Shown piece after piece: positions 4,353-46,843 of a DNA stretch of 51,180 bases (position 1 is the first letter of the stretch; each line of letters opens with the position of its first letter). The translations under genes and the position numbers were made by a program. The notes below the pieces were generated by a model, which was not told the origin of the DNA, searched no databases, and saw only the letters and a list, made by a program, of their open reading frames with translations. This DNA comes from a virus. The DNA lies in IMG/VR virus record IMGVR_UViG_3300030294_000053, positions 1 through 51,180 of that record; one strand, 5' to 3'.

Positions 4353-7300
4353 TTATATAGTAAAGCTAACATTTATATCATGTAACTCCCCTTTATATGT
4401 AGAAGGAGATGTATTAGTTAGCTTTATAAATGCCCAAGGATTTCTTATCCTATCAATACCTTTAACACCTAATAAAGTGTCCTTATCTCTAGGTACATAA
4501 GCCCTCCATATTCTATATTTCTCCTTTAGATTTGATGCAGTTCCTAAAGTATTAGTTAATATAGTACTACCAGACTGGTATTCATTCCAAACATCTAATT
4601 GATTAAACATTGGAGAAGTCTGTAATGCATCTGATACTTTTAAATCCGCTCTAAATTCAACTGTATTGAATATCTTATCATAACTTTCATATGGATTAGC
4701 TATAAGAGTTATATAGTAAGGTTGAGTAGTACCAAAGAAACTATTATAGTCCCCACTATTTATCTGCCATAACTTATTATTCTTAAAGGCAATTAAGTTT
4801 TGATTTAAATTAAATATAGCTGGTACTGCATTATAACTATAGAATGAGGTAAACTGTTGCAATAACTCTGAATATCCTAAACAATAAGAGTTATTGGCAA
4901 AGTATATATCATTATTATTCTTATCATAAAATGCTCTAAAATTAGGCATTGTAGAAGGGTTCCAATTATCCATAGTTTCCTGTGAACCAATCCATTGTCT
5001 AAAGCCCAGTCTATCAGATAAACTAGTTAATGTTTGACCATTAAATATATATAGTGAATTAGTTATATTATCAATAAAGTATATACCTGATGCAGTAGTT
5101 ATTATAGACCATCTATTATTACAACCTACTGTATTACTTAAATATACTTTACCAGATACTTTCTGACCATTAGTTATTTGAATAGGAACCCCATCTGATG
5201 ATGATATTTGTACTCTTGCATTAAACAATATATCACTTAATCCCCTCTCTTGAAAACAATATATCTCATTATTAAGTTTATTAAGTGATGTAATTTCCCC
5301 TTTATCTCCGTCAAGATCTAATGTAGATGCCATTGTTATATTAGTCCAAGCATCAACATCACTACCTAAAGTTTTCTCAGTAGACCAAGTAAGAGTATTA
5401 GGAAAATAATTAATATCCAATTTATCATGATTTACTCCATTATAGTTAAAGAAGTTATTCTTTTGATTATATACAGGATTAAATAGATTAAAATTAGTAG
5501 GAGTCATTGTTAAATTACTATTCATCCCCCTATTTCTATCATACCTTGCATCTAGGTTAATTCTAGTTTCACACATAAATGAACCTATTTCAACTATACT
5601 ATTTTGATCATTCTGTGTAAATGGGTATGTTTTTAAACAGTCATATCTCTGAAAGAATGTATCTCCTTTATAATATAGTAAATCTACACTTGACAAGGTA
5701 TTACCTGAATTATCCTGTAATGAAACAGGTTCCCCTGCTGGTATCCAACTATTATTAATAAAAGCTTCCTCAGTCTGCCCACCAAATCTATTAGATACAT
5801 TATCTCTATATAGTTCCCCTAACCATAAATAACCATAGTCTGGTTGTACATTAATAGTATCTTGAACAGAAGGTACCGATGTATGTAATACTATATTAGC
5901 TACACTGGTACTAGTATTGATACTAGTCATATCAAAATATTTACTATCGGATGTTTTTAATTTAAGACTAATATCAGTTGATGTATATAAAGTCCAAGTA
6001 TTGACCCCACTAGGTTGTGTTATTATATAAAAAGTCCCTGTATAGGTTTCAATACCTGAAGTTAAGTCAGTGTTATGATAAGTATACATAAGCAATGTAT
6101 CGAATATACTATCTGAAGGGGTTGGCATTGTACTACCTGATGCTAATAAAGTAAGACTATGGTTATACTCTACAGTACCCCCTGGATTATAATTAGGATT
6201 CCAACATTGATGATAGGAACTTGGTATTGCAGAAATTGCATTAACAGATTGCCCACTACTATTTACAGTAATAGGTAATATCCTCTCCCTATTATCTGTA
6301 GTATAATTTAAAGCAAATACTGCATGGGGGGTAGATTTATATTTCATACTTACTGCATCTGTACCATATATATAACCATCAGGTACAGTTCCTAGTGCTG
6401 CTATAGGTACAGGTTTGCCTCTAAATATATTATGTAAATTTGATTCAGTCGTACTTAGGGATGATACACATATAGGATATCCATTATTCTTAGTTGGATA
6501 TAATTCTACTGTGGTATGCACCCCATCTTTCCATACACCATAATTAATATGATAAGTACCCTCATTTACAACATTACCGATAGTATACCTTGAAGAATGT
6601 AATACAGAGTTTACATTACCATAGTAATTTAAAGCTGATAAAGTGGAATACTTAGGAGCTGGTATTTTAACTAAAGATACTTCATCAGAATTAAATAAAT
6701 TAACTGAAGTAATACCTGTTTTAGTAGAACTATCTGAAACATATGATTCCCATATAGAATTTTCAGGTAAATATTTAGTAAATGCTGAGTATTTTAAATT
6801 AGATAACTTCTTTTCACTTAACATAGCTGTTCTTCCAGTATCATTCCCTTGGTTATTCAAAGAACCATTTCTATGCCAAGGATATACAAAGAATCCATTT
6901 ATATGGGTATCATCTGTATCAGTACTTTTATAAGCTTTATCAATCCAGTAACCATTACCTAAACAACTCTTTAATCCTTGTATAGATAGATTTGAAGATC
7001 CTATAGTTTCTTTATAAAAACCTAACTTTGAAGAATCATTACCTACGGAAGATGTTTGTATATCAATATCTGATATATTTGATGTAAATGGTATATATCC
7101 TACTATTCTAAACTTCAAAGAACTCATATCCAAGTTCTGTACTTCAGTATCAAACTCTAAATCAGGTGAATGAAATGTAAGGATAGATTGATCTATAAAG
7201 AAATACTCTTGGTGATCACTATTATATAGTTTTAAATCTGAATCTGTATATTGAGAATATGGATATGTAGGTACACCTGCCAAGCACTGTATCTCAGCAT

Positions 7301-35436: not shown

Positions 35437-35532
35437 GATTTTTTTAAATATTACTACTAATAACTTTAGATATACATATTAGGAGTTGAATCTAAAACCC
35501 TCTAATTAAATACTCTAATCTATACCCATTTG

Positions 35533-35605
35533 AGCCTCAAGTAGGATTTGAACCCACGACATTCACTTTACAAAAGTGTTACTCTACCAACTGAGTTATT
35601 AAGGC
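35533..35605 (-). tRNA. tRNA-Thr (anticodon TGT)
   Basis: A complete cloverleaf on the minus strand: acceptor GCCTTAA/TTGAGGC (one G-U), D stem ACTC/GAGT with AGTTGGTA loop, anticodon stem ACACT/AGTGA with one mismatch at its outer pair, loop TTTGTAA giving anticodon TGT, and T stem GTGGG/CCTAC with TTCAAAT loop. CCA is not encoded. It would read ACA, a frequent codon in this AT-rich genome. A strong promoter lies about 75 bases upstream. Confidence 0.9.
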
Positions 35606-36081: not shown

Positions 36082-36095
36082 ACTGAATTATATAT

Positions 36096-36124
36096 AAAAG
36101 ACACCCCAGAGGGGCATCTTTTTA
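36096..36124 (-). terminator. Terminator hairpin between the structured RNA and the 99-residue gene
   Basis: Minus-strand RNA: AAAGATGCCCC, loop TCT, GGGGTGTCTTT with two wobble pairs, then TTATATA. It would end the transcript started at about 36380 before the gene at 36081, or attenuate it. Confidence 0.75.
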
Positions 36125-36380
36125 ATCCCTCTATGACCTTGTTAGGCTTTACTTTTTAATTAATAATACCAGCAAACATCCCCGTTTAGGCTTATATTGT
36201 ATATAATATATAGCAATATTACCCTTTTTCAGTCTTACATCATCTCTATAGTTATACAACTATCCTTAGTCTTCTCATCACTAAGTGGGGTATTTCCTGT
36301 GCTCCTTTGGCATACCCAAAATGTCTACTATTATTAATCTCTAGGTATTGTTCCTCCTATAATATGCTCTATTTGAGTAT
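36125..36380 (-). ncRNA. Probable structured small RNA or regulatory leader
   Basis: About 255 bases between a near-consensus promoter (36388-36418) and a terminator (36096-36124), with no frame longer than about 10 codons. Visible stems on the minus strand include CTTAGT/ACTAAG and ATAGTT/AACTAT hairpins and a longer ATATTG...CAATAT arm. A GGGTAT segment can pair either with ATACCT upstream or ATACCC downstream. These features suggest a folded RNA of unknown family, or a switchable leader for the 99-residue gene. I do not recognise RNase P, 6S, SRP RNA or any known riboswitch. Confidence 0.5.
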
Positions 36381-36387
36381 ACTGATG

Positions 36388-36418
36388 CAAATATAGTCTG
36401 TAAATAGGTCATGTACAA
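36388..36418 (-). promoter_or_regulatory. Promoter for the structured RNA
   Basis: Minus strand: TTG (36416-36418), 20 bases, TATATTTG (36388-36395). There is no good frame directly downstream, which supports an RNA transcript. Confidence 0.75.
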
Positions 36419-36496
36419 ACAATTAGACTTAAATAATGGTAAAAAATAATTTTTATTTTATTTCTAAAAATTGATGTGATATGTATAAGTGGATTA

Positions 36497-36553
36497 TAAG
36501 GCAGCAAGACCCCCACCATCCTTTGGCATGAGGGGATATTCCCCCAGGCATAA
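36497..36553 (+). promoter_or_regulatory. GC-rich structured leader before the 88-residue gene
   Basis: A GC-rich island in an AT-rich intergenic region: CCCCC (about 36510), GAGGGG (about 36531), TTCCCCC (about 36540). The central GGGG run can pair with either C-run, giving alternative hairpins (for example GGGGA-TAT-TCCCC). It ends 20 bases before the ATG at 36573 and may control translation of that gene. No known riboswitch family is recognised. Confidence 0.4.
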
Positions 36554-36572
36554 TCATTAAAAAAGAATTATC

Positions 36573-36839
36573 ATGGCAGAACAAACATTAAAATTCTTGG
36601 CGAGTTATACAATCCCAGAATTTAGTACAAGAAATTTGAAGGAAGGTGAGAAGATTCATATCAATAGAGGTAAAGAATCTGGAAAACTATCTTTCACATG
36701 TGCAGGTATAAAGGGTGCAGTATCAGGAGATTCTATTCCTGAGAACCCAATGATCTCTAGTGTACAAGGTGATGGAGAACCATTCTGGTTAATCCATAAT
36801 ACACCAAGTAGTAATGTAGAAGAAATAGGCACTTTATAA
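36573..36839 (+). CDS. Small beta protein with long leader, unknown
   Basis: 88 residues. It contains KIHINRGKESGKLSFTCAGIKGAVSGDS and ENPMISSVQGDGEPFWLIHNTPSSN, a compact beta-rich fold with Gly turns that I have seen in small Bacteroides and crAss-like phage proteins of unknown function. It is a single-gene transcript: a GC-rich structured leader lies upstream and a strong terminator overlaps the stop codon. This isolation suggests special or abundant expression. Confidence 0.6.
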   Translation: MAEQTLKFLASYTIPEFSTRNLKEGEKIHINRGKESGKLSFTCAGIKGAVSGDSIPENPMISSVQGDGEPFWLIHNTPSSNVEEIGTL

Positions 36840-36851
36840 GTGCTTATTTTT
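36824..36851 (+). terminator. Terminator overlapping the end of the 88-residue gene
   Basis: An 11-bp stem (AATAGGCACTT at 36824-36834 and AAGTGCTTATT at 36838-36848, one G-U pair), loop TAT, then TTTTTT. The left arm lies within the last codons. Confidence 0.85.
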
Positions 36852-36872
36852 TACCTGTATTATCACCTATAT

Positions 36873-36959
36873 CTACTATTTAATAGTAATATATTCACCT
36901 ATATCTATAGATATATTTAGCAAGGCAATGTTAGATACACTATAGTAATATAGGTGAAT
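36873..36959. repeat. Repeated TCACCTATAT units: two direct, one inverted
   Basis: TCACCTATATCTA occurs at 36873-36885 and 36895-36907, and its complement ATATAGGTGA at 36948-36957. The second and third copies form a 12-bp perfect inverted repeat (36893-36904 and 36948-36959). This could be a protein-binding array or part of an origin, because it lies in the gene-poor strand-switch region. Confidence 0.6.
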
Positions 36960-37059
36960 TATCTATACTTATGGGTAATAATTGACTGATGGGGCTATAA
37001 TAAACAGGTCTTATGGTTAGGGTTATATGTTATAGATTAATTATTTAATACTTAAAATC

Positions 37060-37125
37060 ATGAAGAATATCTTTGTATTATTATCATTGTTGGTACTATT
37101 AACTATTTATATATTAACTCATTAA
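37060..37125 (+). CDS. Very small hydrophobic peptide
   Basis: 21 residues, MKNIFVLLSLLVLLTIYILTH, a single membrane helix with a basic start, between the repeat array and the 46-residue frame. Many tiny membrane peptides occur in phages, but there is no further evidence for expression. Confidence 0.4.
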   Translation: MKNIFVLLSLLVLLTIYILTH

Positions 37126-37136
37126 TACTGTGTATT

Positions 37137-37277
37137 ATGAATAAAGAAGAGATAAAAAGATTACTTAAAGTACTAAGTAATAAAGGGTATAGTCCTAAGT
37201 TATCTATAAAAGAACTACTTAAGTCCTACTTGACTTACCAAGATTTTGTATATATCTATGGGATAGAATCTTTCTAA
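37137..37277 (+). CDS. Small protein, unknown
   Basis: 46 residues (MNKEEIKRLLKVLSNKGYSPKLSIKELLKSYL...YGIESF), basic and helical, 12 bases after the 21-residue frame. No recognised family. Its codon use is normal for the phage, which favours a real gene. Confidence 0.45.
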   Translation: MNKEEIKRLLKVLSNKGYSPKLSIKELLKSYLTYQDFVYIYGIESF

Positions 37278-38143
37278 GGACTATTCTGTTAGGGTTATAT
37301 TGTGATAGTATTATTAGGGATACTACTTAAAGAGGGTATATTTCCTAGGTAATTGTATTCCTACTGTACTCCTATTACCTTTTACCTTAGGTAAGTAGAG
37401 TCTTATCTTTCTATATTTCTCTACTGGGGTAACATTAACTAAGTAAAATAGGACTTAATATTAGTAGTAACTAAGTCAATATACTATGTTTTAAATGAAT
37501 AGTTTAATACATAATATATTGATTATTAGTACCTTTACTTATTACTTATTTCTATGTGATAATAGTAGATATTTAATAAGTTGGTACTAATAATTATTTA
37601 AAGTAAGTCCTTGTTTTACAGGTCTTATGTCCATAGTTATTACTGTCAATTAAGATAAGTTGTTACTATTATTAGTCACAACTATGCAAAGTTATTACAT
37701 ATAATAAGTACAATATTGATGAAGTATTAAGCAATACTGTAATGGTTATATGTACCTAATTGATTAGTTTGTTACTATTAATAAGCAAAAGTAATGATGA
37801 AACCTTATTATAGTTAGTAGATAATAACTAATAGAGTAAATTAATAGTGGGATTTAACTTTCAAAAAGTCCCACTCATAGTCATTCGTGGGACTTTTATA
37901 TAAAATAAAGAGTTATTAGAAGATAAAGAATTATTTATTGCTAGGTTTATATTTGTGTAATATTAAAGGAGTAGAAGAATAAGTTTTAATTGAATTAATG
38001 CTTCAACTTTAGTCTGTTAAATGGCTGATAATGAGGGATGTATGTGTGTTTCATGAAAGAAATACCCCTAAATTAACCCATTTCTTCCGTTCCTTTAATT
38101 TTTATTCATATATAATATATAGCACTTTTAAACAAACAATAGT
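37278..38143. other. Gene-poor strand-switch region, possible origin
   Basis: About 865 bases, strongly AT-rich and without a convincing frame. It contains repeated TTGTTACTATTA units (near 37661 and 37770), a TAACTTTG box on the minus strand (37687-37694), a TATATTTG box on the plus strand (37948-37955), the hairpin set at 37846-37897 and a TATATAATATATAGCA element just before 38144. Minus-strand late genes lie to the left and plus-strand early genes to the right, so promoters and perhaps the replication origin are expected here. Confidence 0.45.
37846..37897 (+). promoter_or_regulatory. Competing hairpins (attenuator-like)
   Basis: GTCCCAC at 37868-37874 can pair upstream with GTGGGA (37846-37852) or downstream with GTGGGAC (37887-37893, extended to an 11-bp stem AAAAGTCCCAC/GTGGGACTTTT and followed by ATATAAA). 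The second stem is bidirectional and looks like a terminator. The first would be an antiterminator. Regulation is inferred from these exclusive pairings. Confidence 0.5.
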
Positions 38144-38350
38144 ATGATACATTCAACAAATAATGAAGCCTTTGAATCAGTTTTAAGAGATAATACTACT
38201 AAAGATGGTAGATCTTTCTATGAAATATGGCTAAAAGGTGAACCTATAACAGATAAATCGGATCAAGAATTACTCATTAAAATAGCTCTTGAGCATGGTA
38301 TAGTAGTAAAAATATCTAAGGTAGGAACATTTAATTTCTATCTTCATTAA
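38144..38350 (+). CDS. Small early protein, unknown
   Basis: 68 residues (MIHSTNNEAFESVLRDNTTKDGRSFYEIWLKGEP...). The C-terminal part EHGIVVKISKVGTFNFYLH is beta-like. It is the first plus-strand gene after the switch region, just after a TATATAATATATAGCA element, so it is probably expressed early. No motif is recognised. Confidence 0.55.
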   Translation: MIHSTNNEAFESVLRDNTTKDGRSFYEIWLKGEPITDKSDQELLIKIALEHGIVVKISKVGTFNFYLH

Positions 38351-38369
38351 GATATAAGATATTAATAAT

Positions 38370-38463
38370 ATACAGTATACACAGTTCAGTATTAATTAAA
38401 CAATTAATCGCATGATTTCAAGTGTGAAGTTATGTTTTGATAAAAAGGTAGTGTATACTGTAT
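38370..38463. repeat. 13-bp perfect inverted repeat
   Basis: ATACAGTATACAC at 38370-38382 and its complement at 38451-38463, 68 bases apart, the second arm followed by TTTTT. It lies in the gap between the genes at 38144 and 38555. It may be a long-loop terminator or a binding site. Confidence 0.6.
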
Positions 38464-38496
38464 TTTTCTACAATTTGGCATTTCAATCGTGTTTTT

Positions 38497-38524
38497 AGGG
38501 TATTGCTTGTGAAAGTAGTACCCT
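38497..38524 (+). terminator. Short hairpin followed by T-rich tail
   Basis: AGGGTA (38497-38502) and TACCCT (38519-38524) enclose a 16-base loop, with CTTTTA following. It probably ends the transcript of the 68-residue gene. Confidence 0.5.
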
Positions 38525-38554
38525 CTTTTATTTAATCAATTAAACTTATATATT

Positions 38555-38812
38555 ATGTTATATATTGAAGAAAATGATACTATCACTATTAAACAAGGTG
38601 ATAAAGTTATACTACAAATAGTAAAATCTGAACACACTAGATACTTTGGAGTAGATAATAAAGCTACTAAGAATATTAAGTATATTGCTACATTAAAACT
38701 GGCTATAGAAGCTTGTTATATATTCTGTACCTCTTATTATAGAGATAATAGAATAGAGGATTTTAAAGGTTATCCTTTATACTTAAAAACATTAAAACAT
38801 TATGAGGACTAA
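38555..38812 (+). CDS. Small protein, unknown
   Basis: 85 residues (MLYIEENDTITIKQGDKVILQIVKSEHTRY...). An N-terminal beta part is followed by a helix with Cys residues (ATLKLAIEACYIFCTSYYRD). The next gene overlaps its end by 11 bases in another frame. No recognised function. It belongs to the plus-strand accessory cluster. Confidence 0.55.
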   Translation: MLYIEENDTITIKQGDKVILQIVKSEHTRYFGVDNKATKNIKYIATLKLAIEACYIFCTSYYRDNRIEDFKGYPLYLKTLKHYED

Positions 38813-38930
38813 AGATACATTATTATTTATACCTAGAGTACTTAGATTAGTATTCTGGATAGTATTTTCAAATGAAAAAACACTAAGGAATCCTCCTCAA
38901 TGGGTAAAATCCTTTACAAAATTTAGATAG
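38802..38930 (+). CDS. Very small protein, unknown
   Basis: 42 residues, basic (MRTKDTLLFIPRVLRLVFWIVFSNE...KFR), with a hydrophobic middle. It ends with TAG, showing that TAG is a stop in this genome. It overlaps the preceding gene by 11 bases and the next starts one base later. A tight chain of overlapping starts supports translation. Confidence 0.45.
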   Translation: MRTKDTLLFIPRVLRLVFWIVFSNEKTLRNPPQWVKSFTKFR

Positions 38931-38931
38931 T

Positions 38932-39024
38932 ATGATAGAACTAATTATAATAGTATCTCTATTATTTATAATATGGGGATATAGCAGATCAATAGGTCTT
39001 AAGGACTTCTTTTATAAAGACTAG
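38932..39024 (+). CDS. Very small membrane peptide
   Basis: 30 residues, MIELIIIVSLLFIIWGYSRS..., with an N-terminal membrane helix and a short charged tail, ending in TAG one base after the previous gene. Function unknown. Tiny membrane peptides in phage early regions sometimes act on the host envelope. Confidence 0.4.
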   Translation: MIELIIIVSLLFIIWGYSRSIGLKDFFYKD

Positions 39025-39033
39025 ATAAAATAT

Positions 39034-39125
39034 AATCATTAGAGGACTAACTAGAATTGTAACTTAAATACACTCATATGTTTGCACAAAAGTAAATATT
39101 TAAGGGCATCTAGCCTCTAATGATT
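39034..39125. repeat. 12-bp perfect inverted repeat flanking a promoter box
   Basis: AATCATTAGAGG at 39034-39045 and CCTCTAATGATT at 39114-39125 enclose 68 bases, which contain the TATGTTTG box. No known inversion signature was verified. It may simply form a large stem. Confidence 0.6.
39077..39084 (+). promoter_or_regulatory. Likely -7 box for the 39.2-41.5 kb operon
   Basis: TATGTTTG on the plus strand, 139 bases before the ATG at 39223. A TTG lies 17 bases upstream (39057-39059), which is shorter than the 20 found on the minus strand, so the promoter is weaker or differently regulated. Confidence 0.45.
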
Positions 39126-39222
39126 TATAATACAGCTCTCATTTCTTAATATTAATATAGATAGTTTTGTTGATTTCTGTATATATTAGATTAAGATTTG
39201 AGAGTTTAATTTATTAAAAATA

Positions 39223-41535: not shown

Positions 41536-41882
41536 GGGGGTGGTTTAGCGTTTGATTATTATTCATTTTATAAGTAAACATGCAAAGAGGGCATACTCTT
41601 TAAAAATAGCAAATCATAAGTGCAAAGAATAACATTCTTTCCATGAGTTTTCCTACAATGCAAATTGCAGCTTAACTTATCTGGTTATCACTAACCAAGG
41701 AACATAAAAGTGGTAAATACAGTTCTGTATATCCGCTGTGAATAATTAAATAGATATAATGGTGGAGCTTAAACCAGTCAACTCTGGTAGTCTTGTATAA
41801 TGACTCTAATCTTATACTAAGCATGTAAATAATTTATTTATAAGAGATTAATAAGACCTGGGGGCGGATCCCAGCACCTCCA
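41536..41882 (+). ncRNA. ssrA: Phage-encoded transfer-messenger RNA (tmRNA)
   Basis: About 347 bases. The acceptor stem is GGGGGTG (41536-41542) with CACCTCC (41875-41881), one G-U pair, then A. The helix-H2 equivalent is visible: TTATAAGTAAA (41568-41578) with TTTATTTATAA (41833-41843), then CATGC (41579-41583) with GCATG (41821-41825), inside the conserved CTAAGCATGTA. The T arm is CTGGG/CCCAG (41858-41874). A stem AAAGAG/CTCTTT (41584-41601) precedes the tag region. The tag frame 41622-41675 ends GCA GCT TAA, as in E. coli, and reads AKNNILSMSFPTMQIAA. It would rescue ribosomes stalled on phage or host messages. Oddities: the T loop is GGCGGAT instead of TTC-type, and CCA is not encoded. 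Confidence 0.85.
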
Positions 41883-41955
41883 CAATAAGCTGATTATCAG
41901 CAAGTAATAATAACTACCTAATATATAATAATCCTCATATAATAGGGGTGGATAT

Positions 41956-42597: not shown

Positions 42598-42834
42598 ATG
42601 TATATTGTAATAAAGAATAGTGTAACAAATATCTGTTATTCACTAGACGAAGTAATAGAATTATTTGATTGGAATATATCTAGTAATAATATAATAACTG
42701 TGGATGGTAGAGTATATAACCATATTTATCCTAGTGAATGGTCTCCTAATGAAATTAAAAGGGATATAGTACTATCAGGATTATTAGGAAGGGCTATTCC
42801 TGGGTTAAGTATTTATAAAGCAACAAAGATATGA
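42598..42834 (+). CDS. Small protein, unknown
   Basis: 78 residues (MYIVIKNSVTNICYSLDEVIELFDWN...), beta-rich start and hydrophobic end. Its stop overlaps the start of the next gene (ATGA). No recognised family. Confidence 0.5.
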   Translation: MYIVIKNSVTNICYSLDEVIELFDWNISSNNIITVDGRVYNHIYPSEWSPNEIKRDIVLSGLLGRAIPGLSIYKATKI

Positions 42835-43775
42835 TAAAAGAAAGACAAATAGGAGAGATATTCTATAGTAATTTAGCTAAATGCTGGGTTGTTGTAAAGG
42901 AATTTGACGGGAGATTAGGAACTTATACTTGTAAAGGTTCCTGTATCTATTATCAAACTGCTAAGTGTGATATAAGAGAAATGAAATCAAGTATACATTG
43001 TCAAACTCCCCAAAGGTCTGATAAACATGAAATAATATTTACTAAAATACCAGAAGTTACAATTATCAATGAACATAATCTGGTAGAAGGAGAATATTTT
43101 ATTTTTAATAATAGAATATATAAGACTGTGAAATATGGTAATATTAAAGACACATTCATTGCTGCAATACCAGATAATGTTACAAAGGATAATATATTAT
43201 ATCGTTATACAGGTGCTGATGTAAATAGATTGGTATTTAAGTTTATACAAAAATGTGATAATAAAATTAATAATATGGAAGAGGGTATAGTAAAACTAAC
43301 TTTAGAAAAAGCTAAAGAGTATTATAATGGTACTAATGAAGCATTAAAAGAAATTGCTAAACAAGCTTTTAATGAAGATAAATTAAAAGGTGATTCCTGG
43401 GAAAGCCATTTTATCAATACCAATGGTTGCATGAATGGGTTTGTGATTAATACAATTGGATCAATTGTTGCTACTCATGATACTGAAGTTGGTATTGATT
43501 CTAAAAGAATCTTTAAAACTCAAAAACAAGCTTTATCAGCATTAGCCTATGCACAATTAACTCAATTAATGGCACTACCAGAGTATAATGGAGATTGGCA
43601 ACCTATTTGGGATCTAGGTTCTATTAAATACTGTATATATGCTAGTTTTCATAGTTTAATCATACGTAATTACCATCATGAGAGGAATTTTATAGCATTT
43701 AAAAATGCAGGGATTAGAGATAAGTTTCTACAAAACTTTGAACCGTTATTAAAACAGTATTTTCAAATAGATTAA
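42831..43775 (+). CDS. Phage protein with Cys motif and C-terminal domain shared with its neighbour
   Basis: 314 residues. The N-terminal part has Cys residues in C-x3-C...C...C arrangement (TCKGSCIYYQTAKCDIREMKSSIHC, residues about 38-62), possibly metal binding, then FTKIPE. The C-terminal half (from about residue 158) matches the next gene: AKEYYNGTNEALKEIAKQAF, SALAYAQLTQLM, FIAFKNAGIRDKFLQNF. The same C-terminal domain occurs in many Bacteroides phage proteins of unknown function. It overlaps the previous stop by 4 bases. The two genes are probably a duplicated pair with different N-terminal parts. Confidence 0.6.
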   Translation: MIKERQIGEIFYSNLAKCWVVVKEFDGRLGTYTCKGSCIYYQTAKCDIREMKSSIHCQTPQRSDKHEIIFTKIPEVTIINEHNLVEGEYFIFNNRIYKTVKYGNIKDTFIAAIPDNVTKDNILYRYTGADVNRLVFKFIQKCDNKINNMEEGIVKLTLEKAKEYYNGTNEALKEIAKQAFNEDKLKGDSWESHFINTNGCMNGFVINTIGSIVATHDTEVGIDSKRIFKTQKQALSALAYAQLTQLMALPEYNGDWQPIWDLGSIKYCIYASFHSLIIRNYHHERNFIAFKNAGIRDKFLQNFEPLLKQYFQID

Positions 43776-43779
43776 TATT

Positions 43780-44484
43780 ATGGAAAGAGTAATTGGGGAT
43801 AAGTTTACTTATAGGAATAATACTCTTCAAGTTATTAAAAGAATTGGGTGTGACAAATGTTTTTTTAAGAATGATAAGGGGAGTTGTGATGAATCCAGTC
43901 ATGTTTCTATAACTGGTAGATGTACTAGTGGAAGTAGAAAAGATAATGTTGGAGTACAATTTATAAAAGTAAATAATATGGAAGAAAAAAGAAATATTAA
44001 GGTAGATTTATCTACTGCAAAAGAATGGTATAAAGGTGATAATATCACTCTTAAAACATTAGCTATTCAGGCTTATCCTGAATTAAAAGAGCCTGTTATT
44101 AAAACATGGGTAGACCTTGAAAATTGTCATAAAAGTATTAAAGGATACTTTATTAATAGTATGTATTCTGCAATAGAAGCTAATGAAAATACTGCAAGTG
44201 AGTTTACTAAAGGCTTGTTTACAAACAAACCTCAGGCAAAGTCTGCTTTAGCTATGTCTCAAATAAGTCAATTAATACCTTATTATGGGGGAGAAATTAC
44301 TAATAAAGAGTGGATTAATACTGATATAAGAAAATATGTTATAAAGAGAATGGGGGTTCAACTTTATTTTGAGGAAGTCTTTGTAACTGGTTATGAGTAT
44401 TTAGCTTTTCATAATAAAGAACAACGAAATTCTTTCTTAAAGAATAATGAACAATTAGTCAAGGATTATCTAATGATTGATTAA
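43780..44484 (+). CDS. Paralogue of the preceding protein with zinc-binding-like Cys motif
   Basis: 234 residues. It starts MERVIGDKFTYRNNTLQVIKRIGCDKCFF, then CDESSHVSITGRCTSGSRKDNVGVQFIKV, a CxxC...C...C pattern (residues about 24-48) like a small zinc-binding domain. The rest (AKEWYKGDNITLKTLAIQAY, SALAMSQISQLI, YLAFHNKEQRNSFLKNNEQLVKDYLMID) is homologous to the 314-residue neighbour. The tail with IRKYVIKRMGVQLYFEEVF and EQLVKDYL is typical of the Bacteroides phage family. Function unknown. Confidence 0.6.
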   Translation: MERVIGDKFTYRNNTLQVIKRIGCDKCFFKNDKGSCDESSHVSITGRCTSGSRKDNVGVQFIKVNNMEEKRNIKVDLSTAKEWYKGDNITLKTLAIQAYPELKEPVIKTWVDLENCHKSIKGYFINSMYSAIEANENTASEFTKGLFTNKPQAKSALAMSQISQLIPYYGGEITNKEWINTDIRKYVIKRMGVQLYFEEVFVTGYEYLAFHNKEQRNSFLKNNEQLVKDYLMID

Positions 44485-45249: not shown

Positions 45250-45681
45250 ATGATGATATTAATAACCACAATAGCTTTTAATATTAGTATATTTAAATTT
45301 CCCTTTTACCAGCATAAAGATACTATAATGAAGATAGAGTATCCTTCATTCTTACAGGAACCATTAAATGATTCTACTTTGTATGAAGCCCTCTGTTTTT
45401 ATGATGTACCTAATCCTAAAATAGTACTAGCTCAGGCTAAACTTGAATCAGGTAATTTTACATCAAGACTTACCAAAAATAATAATAATCCATTTGGATT
45501 ATATAATTCAAAAACAAAACAATTTTATCATTTCAAACATTGGGCATATGCAGTTTTATTCTATAAAGAGAATATTAGTAATAAATATAAAGGGGGTAAC
45601 TACTTTAAGTTTTTGGAAGATTTGGGATATGCTGAAGATCCTTTGTATAATGATAAATTAAAAGAAATAAGATATGGATAG
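45250..45681 (+). CDS. Glucosaminidase/lysozyme-like protein with N-terminal membrane segment
   Basis: 143 residues. The N-terminal hydrophobic stretch (MMILITTIAFNISIFKFPFYQ) looks like an anchor or signal. The body has AQAKLESGNFTSRLTKNNNNPFGLYN (residues about 61-86), the pattern of N-acetylglucosaminidase/LytG-type domains, with Glu66 as the likely catalytic acid. It starts one base after the 52-residue membrane protein and overlaps the helicase by 8 bases. It would cut peptidoglycan. Its place inside the replication cluster is unusual for an endolysin. Confidence 0.65.
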   Translation: MMILITTIAFNISIFKFPFYQHKDTIMKIEYPSFLQEPLNDSTLYEALCFYDVPNPKIVLAQAKLESGNFTSRLTKNNNNPFGLYNSKTKQFYHFKHWAYAVLFYKENISNKYKGGNYFKFLEDLGYAEDPLYNDKLKEIRYG

Positions 45682-46843
45682 GGAATCAATATTAGATAAG
45701 GTTAAGAATTTAAGTAAGAGTAATCCAAATATAATATTGCAGTTTGCAACAGGCACAGGTAAATCAAAGTGTGCTTTGTCATTAATAGATTATTGGCAGG
45801 CTAAAAAGATATTACTTTGTGTAGCTGAAACTGCACATAAAACTAATTGGAAGAAAGAATTTATTAAATGGAAAGTAGATATACCAGATAATCTAGTAAT
45901 AATAACCTATCAGAGTTTGCATAAGTATGAGAATACCTCATGGGATTTAATAATATTTGATGAGGCTCATCATTTGAATACAGATAAGAGACTAATGATT
46001 CTATCTACCCTAAAAGCTAATAATATAGTAGCACTATCAGCAACTCTTACAGATGATTGCAAGAATGCATTAAATACTAGTACAAAGAAGAGGTTCTATG
46101 TGTATACAATTACTTTAAAAGATGCTATAGAGAATGATATACTACCATCACCTGAATTAAAGATAGTTCCACTCACTTTGAATAATACAATTAGATCACA
46201 GAGTTATGATATAACCTATGGTAATTCCTCTATTAAGAAGGTATTTGAGTGTAATTATCCTAATAGATGGGATTATATGGCTAAAGCATTTAAGTTGAAA
46301 AATCCTAACTCTAAGATCATTGTGAGGTGTACTGAATTTGAGAAGTATACTATTATTGATGAGAAGTGCAATTATTATAAGAGAATGTATAATAATATGC
46401 ATAGTGATAGATATTTACAGAGTATGCTTAGAGCAGGACTTGAGAGAAAAAGGTATTTAGGGGATTTAAAGACTGAGGCAGTAAGAAGTATTCTTAGTAC
46501 TTTAACTAAGAAGAAAACCATATGCTTTTGCTCTTCTATAATACAAGCAATGTGTATTAATGACAAGTGTGCCATATACTCAGGTAAACCTAATTCACAG
46601 TATCTTATAGATAAGTTTGATAAGGGGGAAATTAAGCAGCTATTAATGGTTAATATGCTTAAGGAAGGTCAGAATCTTAATAATGTAGAAGCTAGTATTA
46701 TTACCCAATTGGATGGTACAACATTAGCTTTTATACAGAAAGTTGGTAGAGTATTAAGAGCCAAAGATCCTATTCAATATATACTTTATTACAAGAATAC
46801 TAGAGATGAGGAATATCTGGAGAAGGCTCTACAAAACTTTTAA
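45674..46843 (+). CDS. SF2 DNA/RNA helicase
   Basis: 389 residues with all main SF2 motifs: ATGTGKS (Walker A, residues 25-31), DEAH (96-99), SAT (122-124) and QKVGRVLRA (motif VI, about 361). The second RecA-like domain carries the long insert of the DEAD/DEAH type used in phage replication or repair. The usual crAss-like phage replication module includes such a helicase. It overlaps the lysozyme gene by 8 bases and the next gene starts 2 bases after its stop. Confidence 0.85.
   Translation: MDRESILDKVKNLSKSNPNIILQFATGTGKSKCALSLIDYWQAKKILLCVAETAHKTNWKKEFIKWKVDIPDNLVIITYQSLHKYENTSWDLIIFDEAHHLNTDKRLMILSTLKANNIVALSATLTDDCKNALNTSTKKRFYVYTITLKDAIENDILPSPELKIVPLTLNNTIRSQSYDITYGNSSIKKVFECNYPNRWDYMAKAFKLKNPNSKIIVRCTEFEKYTIIDEKCNYYKRMYNNMHSDRYLQSMLRAGLERKRYLGDLKTEAVRSILSTLTKKKTICFCSSIIQAMCINDKCAIYSGKPNSQYLIDKFDKGEIKQLLMVNMLKEGQNLNNVEASIITQLDGTTLAFIQKVGRVLRAKDPIQYILYYKNTRDEEYLEKALQNF

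Follow-up and report, generated by a model that had tools for sequence, protein, structure and literature searches.

The question raised by this locus is whether a phage of the crAss-like group, whose members are among the most abundant human gut viruses, encodes a tmRNA of its own, whether such a gene would be new in the group, and whether this copy is likely to act. The window analysed here is the whole IMG/VR record, 51,180 bases long and itself a fragment. The original prediction had placed a tmRNA of a crAss-like phage between positions 41536 and 41882, and the features found there are collected in Table 1.

Table 1. Features of the tmRNA gene and its downstream neighbours in the window
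Feature	Position	Strand	Remarks
One-piece tmRNA (ssrA) gene	41536..41882	+	347 nt including discriminator A; RF00023
Acceptor stem, 5' strand GGGGGTG	41536..41542	+	pairs with 41875-41881
D-loop region GTTTAGCGTTTGAT	41543..41556	+	relatives: ATTTGGCTTTGAT
H2 helix, 5' strand, core CATGC at end	41557..41584	+	duplex -19.6 kcal/mol
Tag reading frame AKNNILSMSFPTMQIAA, 17 codons	41622..41675	+	TAAGT before it; resume codon GCA at 41622; stop TAA ends at 41675; tag end QIAA
Pseudoknot TGGT/ACCA with TATCACT/AGTGGTA	41682..41715	+	
Pseudoknot TACAGT/GCTGTG with TATATC/GATATA	41718..41758	+	
Pseudoknot as scored, TGGAG/CTCTG with AGTCA/TGACT	41763..41805	+	alternative first stem ACCAG/CTGGT available
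H2 helix, 3' strand, core GCATG at start	41821..41854	+	
T-arm, stem CTGGG/CCCAG	41858..41874	+	loop GGCGGAT at 41863-41869, non-canonical
Acceptor stem, 3' strand CACCTCC	41875..41881	+	then discriminator A
Two adjacent genes (42831-43775, 43780-44484)	42831..44484	+	tblastn E 5e-5 to 4.5e-10

The Rfam model RF00023 matches positions 41536-41885 of the + strand with 55.1 bits (cut-off 47; E 5.4e-19 for a scope of the 51 kb and all 4227 Rfam families) and is covered at its full length, model positions 1-374. ARAGORN, the other program with which the prediction was to be checked, made no tmRNA call at 41536-41882, its sole report in the window being a tRNA-Thr at 35532-35605. The elements that had been read from the letters were recovered: the 7-bp acceptor stem enclosing 347 nt, the sequence block of bacterial tmRNAs (CTAAGCATGTA), the T-arm stem with five of five pairs, whose altered loop had gone unmentioned, and the tag frame ending GCA GCT TAA, in which the codon before these is ATT. 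The description of H2 as 11 bp plus 5 bp was a fair one; in our analysis it consists of 6 bp (ACATGC/GCATGT) followed by 12, 2 and 6 bp. The acceptor stem contains a single G-U pair, at 3:70 (G3-U70), which is an identity element for alanine. CCA is not encoded in the gene, and CAA follows the stem. The fold of the window tmRNA has a z-score of -3.05 against shuffles, and the three H-type pseudoknots between the tag stop and H2 have a summed score of 72; in 300 dinucleotide shuffles the score averaged 35 (sd 13) and never rose to 72, even in the 11 of them that contained an equal number of pseudoknots. The match to the model thus goes together with a structure beyond chance, and positions 41536-41882 of the + strand are a real tmRNA gene. 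A simple promoter scan, whose scope excludes Bacteroidota and phage-specific promoters, gave no + strand site before it.

The attribution to a crAss-like phage held as well. The portal, the capsid protein and the terminase of the window match phage structural families (PHROGs for the first two), and 150 phage records have a match to the terminase, the top ones belonging to Steigviridae, Asinivirinae, with identity of 43-49% over most of the protein length. These matches support the assignment of the contig as crAss-like and Steigviridae-like. Alignment of terminases found relatives, unlike the IMG/VR scan with the window terminase alone, which returned none; a scan of IMG/VR with the protein of 42831-43775 also returned none. 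The tmRNA lies within a + strand block that holds a glucosaminidase (45250-45681), helicases and a Sak4-like protein. The products of the two adjacent genes listed in Table 1 contain a short motif common to the gene immediately upstream of the tmRNA in phages cr106_1, cr128_1 and Kehishuvirus tikkala; a homologue of the glucosaminidase lies about 4 kb downstream of the tikkala tmRNA, and a homologue of the 45674-46843 protein lies downstream of the tmRNA in cr128_1. These common genes indicate that the window tmRNA stands in the phage's own gene order. Elsewhere in the window, about 3 kb between two divergent gene blocks (36082-39222) contain only three ORFs of at least 60 residues in a mechanical list, and may possibly be regulatory or small-gene territory.

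The search of crAss-like genomes that had been suggested revealed a tmRNA in seven other crAss-like or related records. RF00023 gives 74.3 bits for cr106_1, 69.5 for the IMG/VR contig G046, 58.2 for Flavobacterium phage FpV4 and 55.5 for G082 (IMGVR_UViG_3300035034_000851, 88,950 bases), a record found by pattern scan that carries a crAss-like terminase (E 1.4e-72). The tikkala gene, with 41.7 bits, is below the cut-off, and that of the IMG/VR contig G040, with 37.4 bits, is cut by the contig end. Used as a DNA query, the tikkala gene led to cr106_1, where the tmRNA is annotated, and to cr128_1, where it is not; the FpV4 tmRNA is likewise unannotated in KT876724.1. Among the loci tested, ARAGORN calls a tmRNA only in cr106_1 and G082. 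To put a figure on prevalence we took 36 genomes of 75 kb or more, crAss-like or related (9 + 13 + 14), whose tmRNA status was unknown beforehand, a sample that leans towards Steigviridae and includes several close relatives; three of them (tikkala, apparently broken, G046 and FpV4) carry a tmRNA, a lower bound because the intron-split gene of cr128_1 escapes RF00023. With this model no tmRNA was found in crAss001, DAC15, crAss002 and two PhiCrAssBcn phages. Other crAss-like genomes also gave RF00023 matches, of about 9-25 bits; we attributed these to tRNAs and left them uncounted.

The novelty implied by the original prediction did not survive these comparisons. The depositors of MT774378 (cr106_1, Crassvirales; Steigviridae) had already annotated a 'transfer-messenger RNA, SsrA', and six further crAss-like or related records with a tmRNA were found here. 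Huge phages carry tmRNAs together with SmpB (PMC7162821), and a tmRNA is present in 402 of 18,146 phage genomes, about 2% (PMC9004378), which together with the MT774378 label limits what is new. The 2025 tmRNA database (PMC11915505), for which RefSeq viruses were searched, holds 79 unique phage sequences, so that one of these may be the RefSeq copy of cr106_1. Our search of the literature for crAss-like phages in connection with tmRNA brought up no paper devoted to the topic; the molecule was mentioned only through software. Judged from sequence, the window tmRNA is real and not unprecedented in crAss-like phages.

A lack of helix conservation in related phages was to refute the prediction; the H2 cores of these phages differ and yet always pair. 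The window and cr106_1 have the core CATGC/GCATG, cr128_1 has CATGT/ACATG, G046 CACGC/GCGTG, FpV4 CAGC/GCTG and G082 CAAGT/ACTTG, which makes five forms, complementary every time. At the T-stem pair beside the loop a compensatory change separates the window (G-C) from FpV4 (A-U). Every tag has Ala-Ala before the stop, specified by five codon combinations. The compensation in H2 and the use of different codons for the same tag end argue that this kind of RNA is conserved among crAss-like phages. Apart from the Ala-Ala end, there are strong differences among the tags themselves and between them and host tags. Bacteroidota tags drawn by pattern were mostly GENNYALAA, a type to which the window tag does not belong; because this general form was built into the pattern, no more follows than that Bacteroidota commonly have such tags.

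Some of these loci have peculiarities of their own. In the tmRNA of cr128_1 (L247, MT774392.1, 4998-6314) a group I intron (RF00028, 86.1 bits) interrupts the T-loop, the exon ending ..GAGGGTT at 5427 and the next exon, CGAATCCCTCATGCTCCA, starting from 6297. The intron is 869 nt long, with U at -1 and a terminal G, contains an opposite-strand ORF with a zf-FCS match, and is inserted after the second T-loop base, apparently at the Bacteroidia-type subsite of PMC11915505; the gene, at 1317 nt, exceeds the maximum of 1152 bp given there. The tmRNA of tikkala, a cultured phage (L248, OQ198717.1, about 4998-5300), is nearly identical to that of cr106_1, but its 3' end, CCAACCATCCCCA, does not pair with the acceptor 5' strand and its T-stem is broken; two hypothetical CDSs are annotated across it. 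This copy appears to be broken, a possible cause being recombination within the T-loop, and its state suggests that loss of the tmRNA is tolerated. The tmRNA of G046, a 106-kb crAss-like contig, lies amid about ten predicted tRNA genes (L249 2001-9565, - strand), and tRNA genes are found near the tmRNA in cr106_1 and cr128_1 too, with none next to that of the window. About 2 kb downstream of the cr106_1 tmRNA there is a gene for a TROVE-domain (Ro60-like) protein (L246, MT774378.1, 7562-8983); proteins of this type bind structured RNAs in other systems.

The least usual property of the window tmRNA is its tRNA elbow. The T-loop is GGCGGAU against the canonical UUCGANU, with U54, U55 and A58 absent, and in the D-loop, compared with that of FpV4, G18 is replaced by A and one base is added, so that the combination of a UUCRANU T-loop with D-loop G18-G19 is lacking. 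A pattern that left the loop unconstrained retrieved 57 distinct 3' ends of phage tmRNAs; the usual T-T-x-x-A occurs in 51, the remainder being mostly misregistered. In G082 the loop TTCGACT is enclosed by a stem and flanks identical to those of the window. Pattern scans of IMG/VR found no record with the GGCGGAT loop and no match to the 5' end of the window tmRNA, and comparison of the gene as DNA with 50,697 phage records gave none; these searches thus brought up no close relative of this copy, in sets from which the records nearest to the window may have been withheld. Canonical loops are typical of tmRNAs and not strictly defining, and therefore the odd loops lower confidence in activity, not in descent. 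With the stems perfect, concentrated change, assembly error and early decay are all possible.

We consider it probable that this is a phage-borne one-piece tmRNA acting in ribosome rescue. The RNA would be transcribed during infection, trimmed by host enzymes that also add the CCA end, charged with alanine by the host AlaRS via G3-U70 and bound by host SmpB and EF-Tu; it would then free ribosomes stalled on broken mRNAs, adding a phage tag that ends in QIAA, and the tagged product would be sent to host proteases of the ClpXP type. ClpXP reads a hydrophobic residue followed by Ala-Ala, and the predicted tag frame appears to end in such a protease signal, Ala-Ala. From these elements we infer expression, charging, tagging and proteolysis. 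An SmpB search that was positive in 10 control bacteria found none in the window and five other tmRNA-bearing records, so that the window tmRNA would depend on host SmpB, as it would need host AlaRS, EF-Tu and proteases. The RNA may supplement or compete with the host ssrA; supplementing host rescue seems the simplest reading, and the proposal that it replaces or biases host ribosome rescue during infection is plausible.

The altered T-loop nevertheless casts a specific doubt on the activity of the window copy. A working gene may have been inherited and its function now be in the course of loss, starting from the D-loop and T-loop of the elbow, both of which depart from all intact relatives; the broken acceptor and T-stem of tikkala indicate that decay occurs in the group. 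We regard such decay as unlikely, since all stems, the three pseudoknots, G3-U70 and the Ala-Ala tag are intact in the window copy, and random decay should not spare stems and tag while striking mainly loops. Rather less likely still is a joint rebuilding of the T-loop and D-loop with intact stems, giving a tmRNA with a non-canonical elbow that still works, opposes trans-translation by the host or evades an enzyme recognizing the T-loop.

It is very improbable that the RNA is a modified tmRNA that inhibits or redirects host trans-translation by competing for SmpB, AlaRS or ribosomes or by tagging differently: a tag-less tmRNA-like RNA of phage DS6A does inhibit the endogenous tmRNA in E. coli (PMC11915505) and the window tag is unlike the GENNYALAA type that is common among Bacteroidota, but the window RNA, unlike the DS6A form, keeps its tag frame and the usual elements. 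Integration often takes place at tmRNA genes (PMC11915505), and the locus could also be a host tmRNA gene, or what is left of an integration site, that assembly or recombination joined to the contig. This is hardly credible for a whole gene whose tag is not of the GENNYALAA type and whose downstream genes match crAss-like phages with a tmRNA in the corresponding place; on the whole gene and the common neighbourhood, both an integration-site remnant and host contamination were rejected. Several crAss-like lineages carry tmRNAs, most of which lack annotation and many of which the usual program overlooks. Their presence suggests that the rescue of ribosomes, or a diversion of it, is important in some infections, and these tmRNAs provide concrete genes for testing this.

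Compared with known systems, the one-piece window tmRNA differs from the two-piece tmRNA of Melnitz (PMC9004378) and from some huge phages, which encode SmpB besides tmRNA (PMC7162821), none having been found in the window. The tmRNA of cr106_1 (MT774378.1 29657-29960) is, like that of the window, a one-piece molecule of Steigviridae with related neighbour genes, an Ala-Ala tag and no SmpB found; it differs in its acceptor (GGGGCAT/ATGCTCC), canonical T-loop, 8-residue tag DNTYRVAA, the two adjoining tRNA genes and its detection by ARAGORN. FpV4 (KT876724.1 81947-82361; L393 1948-2362, - strand) has the same acceptor as the window and a T-stem one compensatory pair apart, in contrast to its canonical T-loop, H2 core (CAGC/GCTG) and predicted 35-residue tag frame ending AVAA. 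G082 differs from the window in its T-loop (TTCGACT), longer tag frame and a terminase only about 27% identical, whereas its acceptor and T-stem are identical and its tag, ..VLQMFPTVKLEIAA, resembles by eye the ..ILSMSFPTMQIAA of the window.
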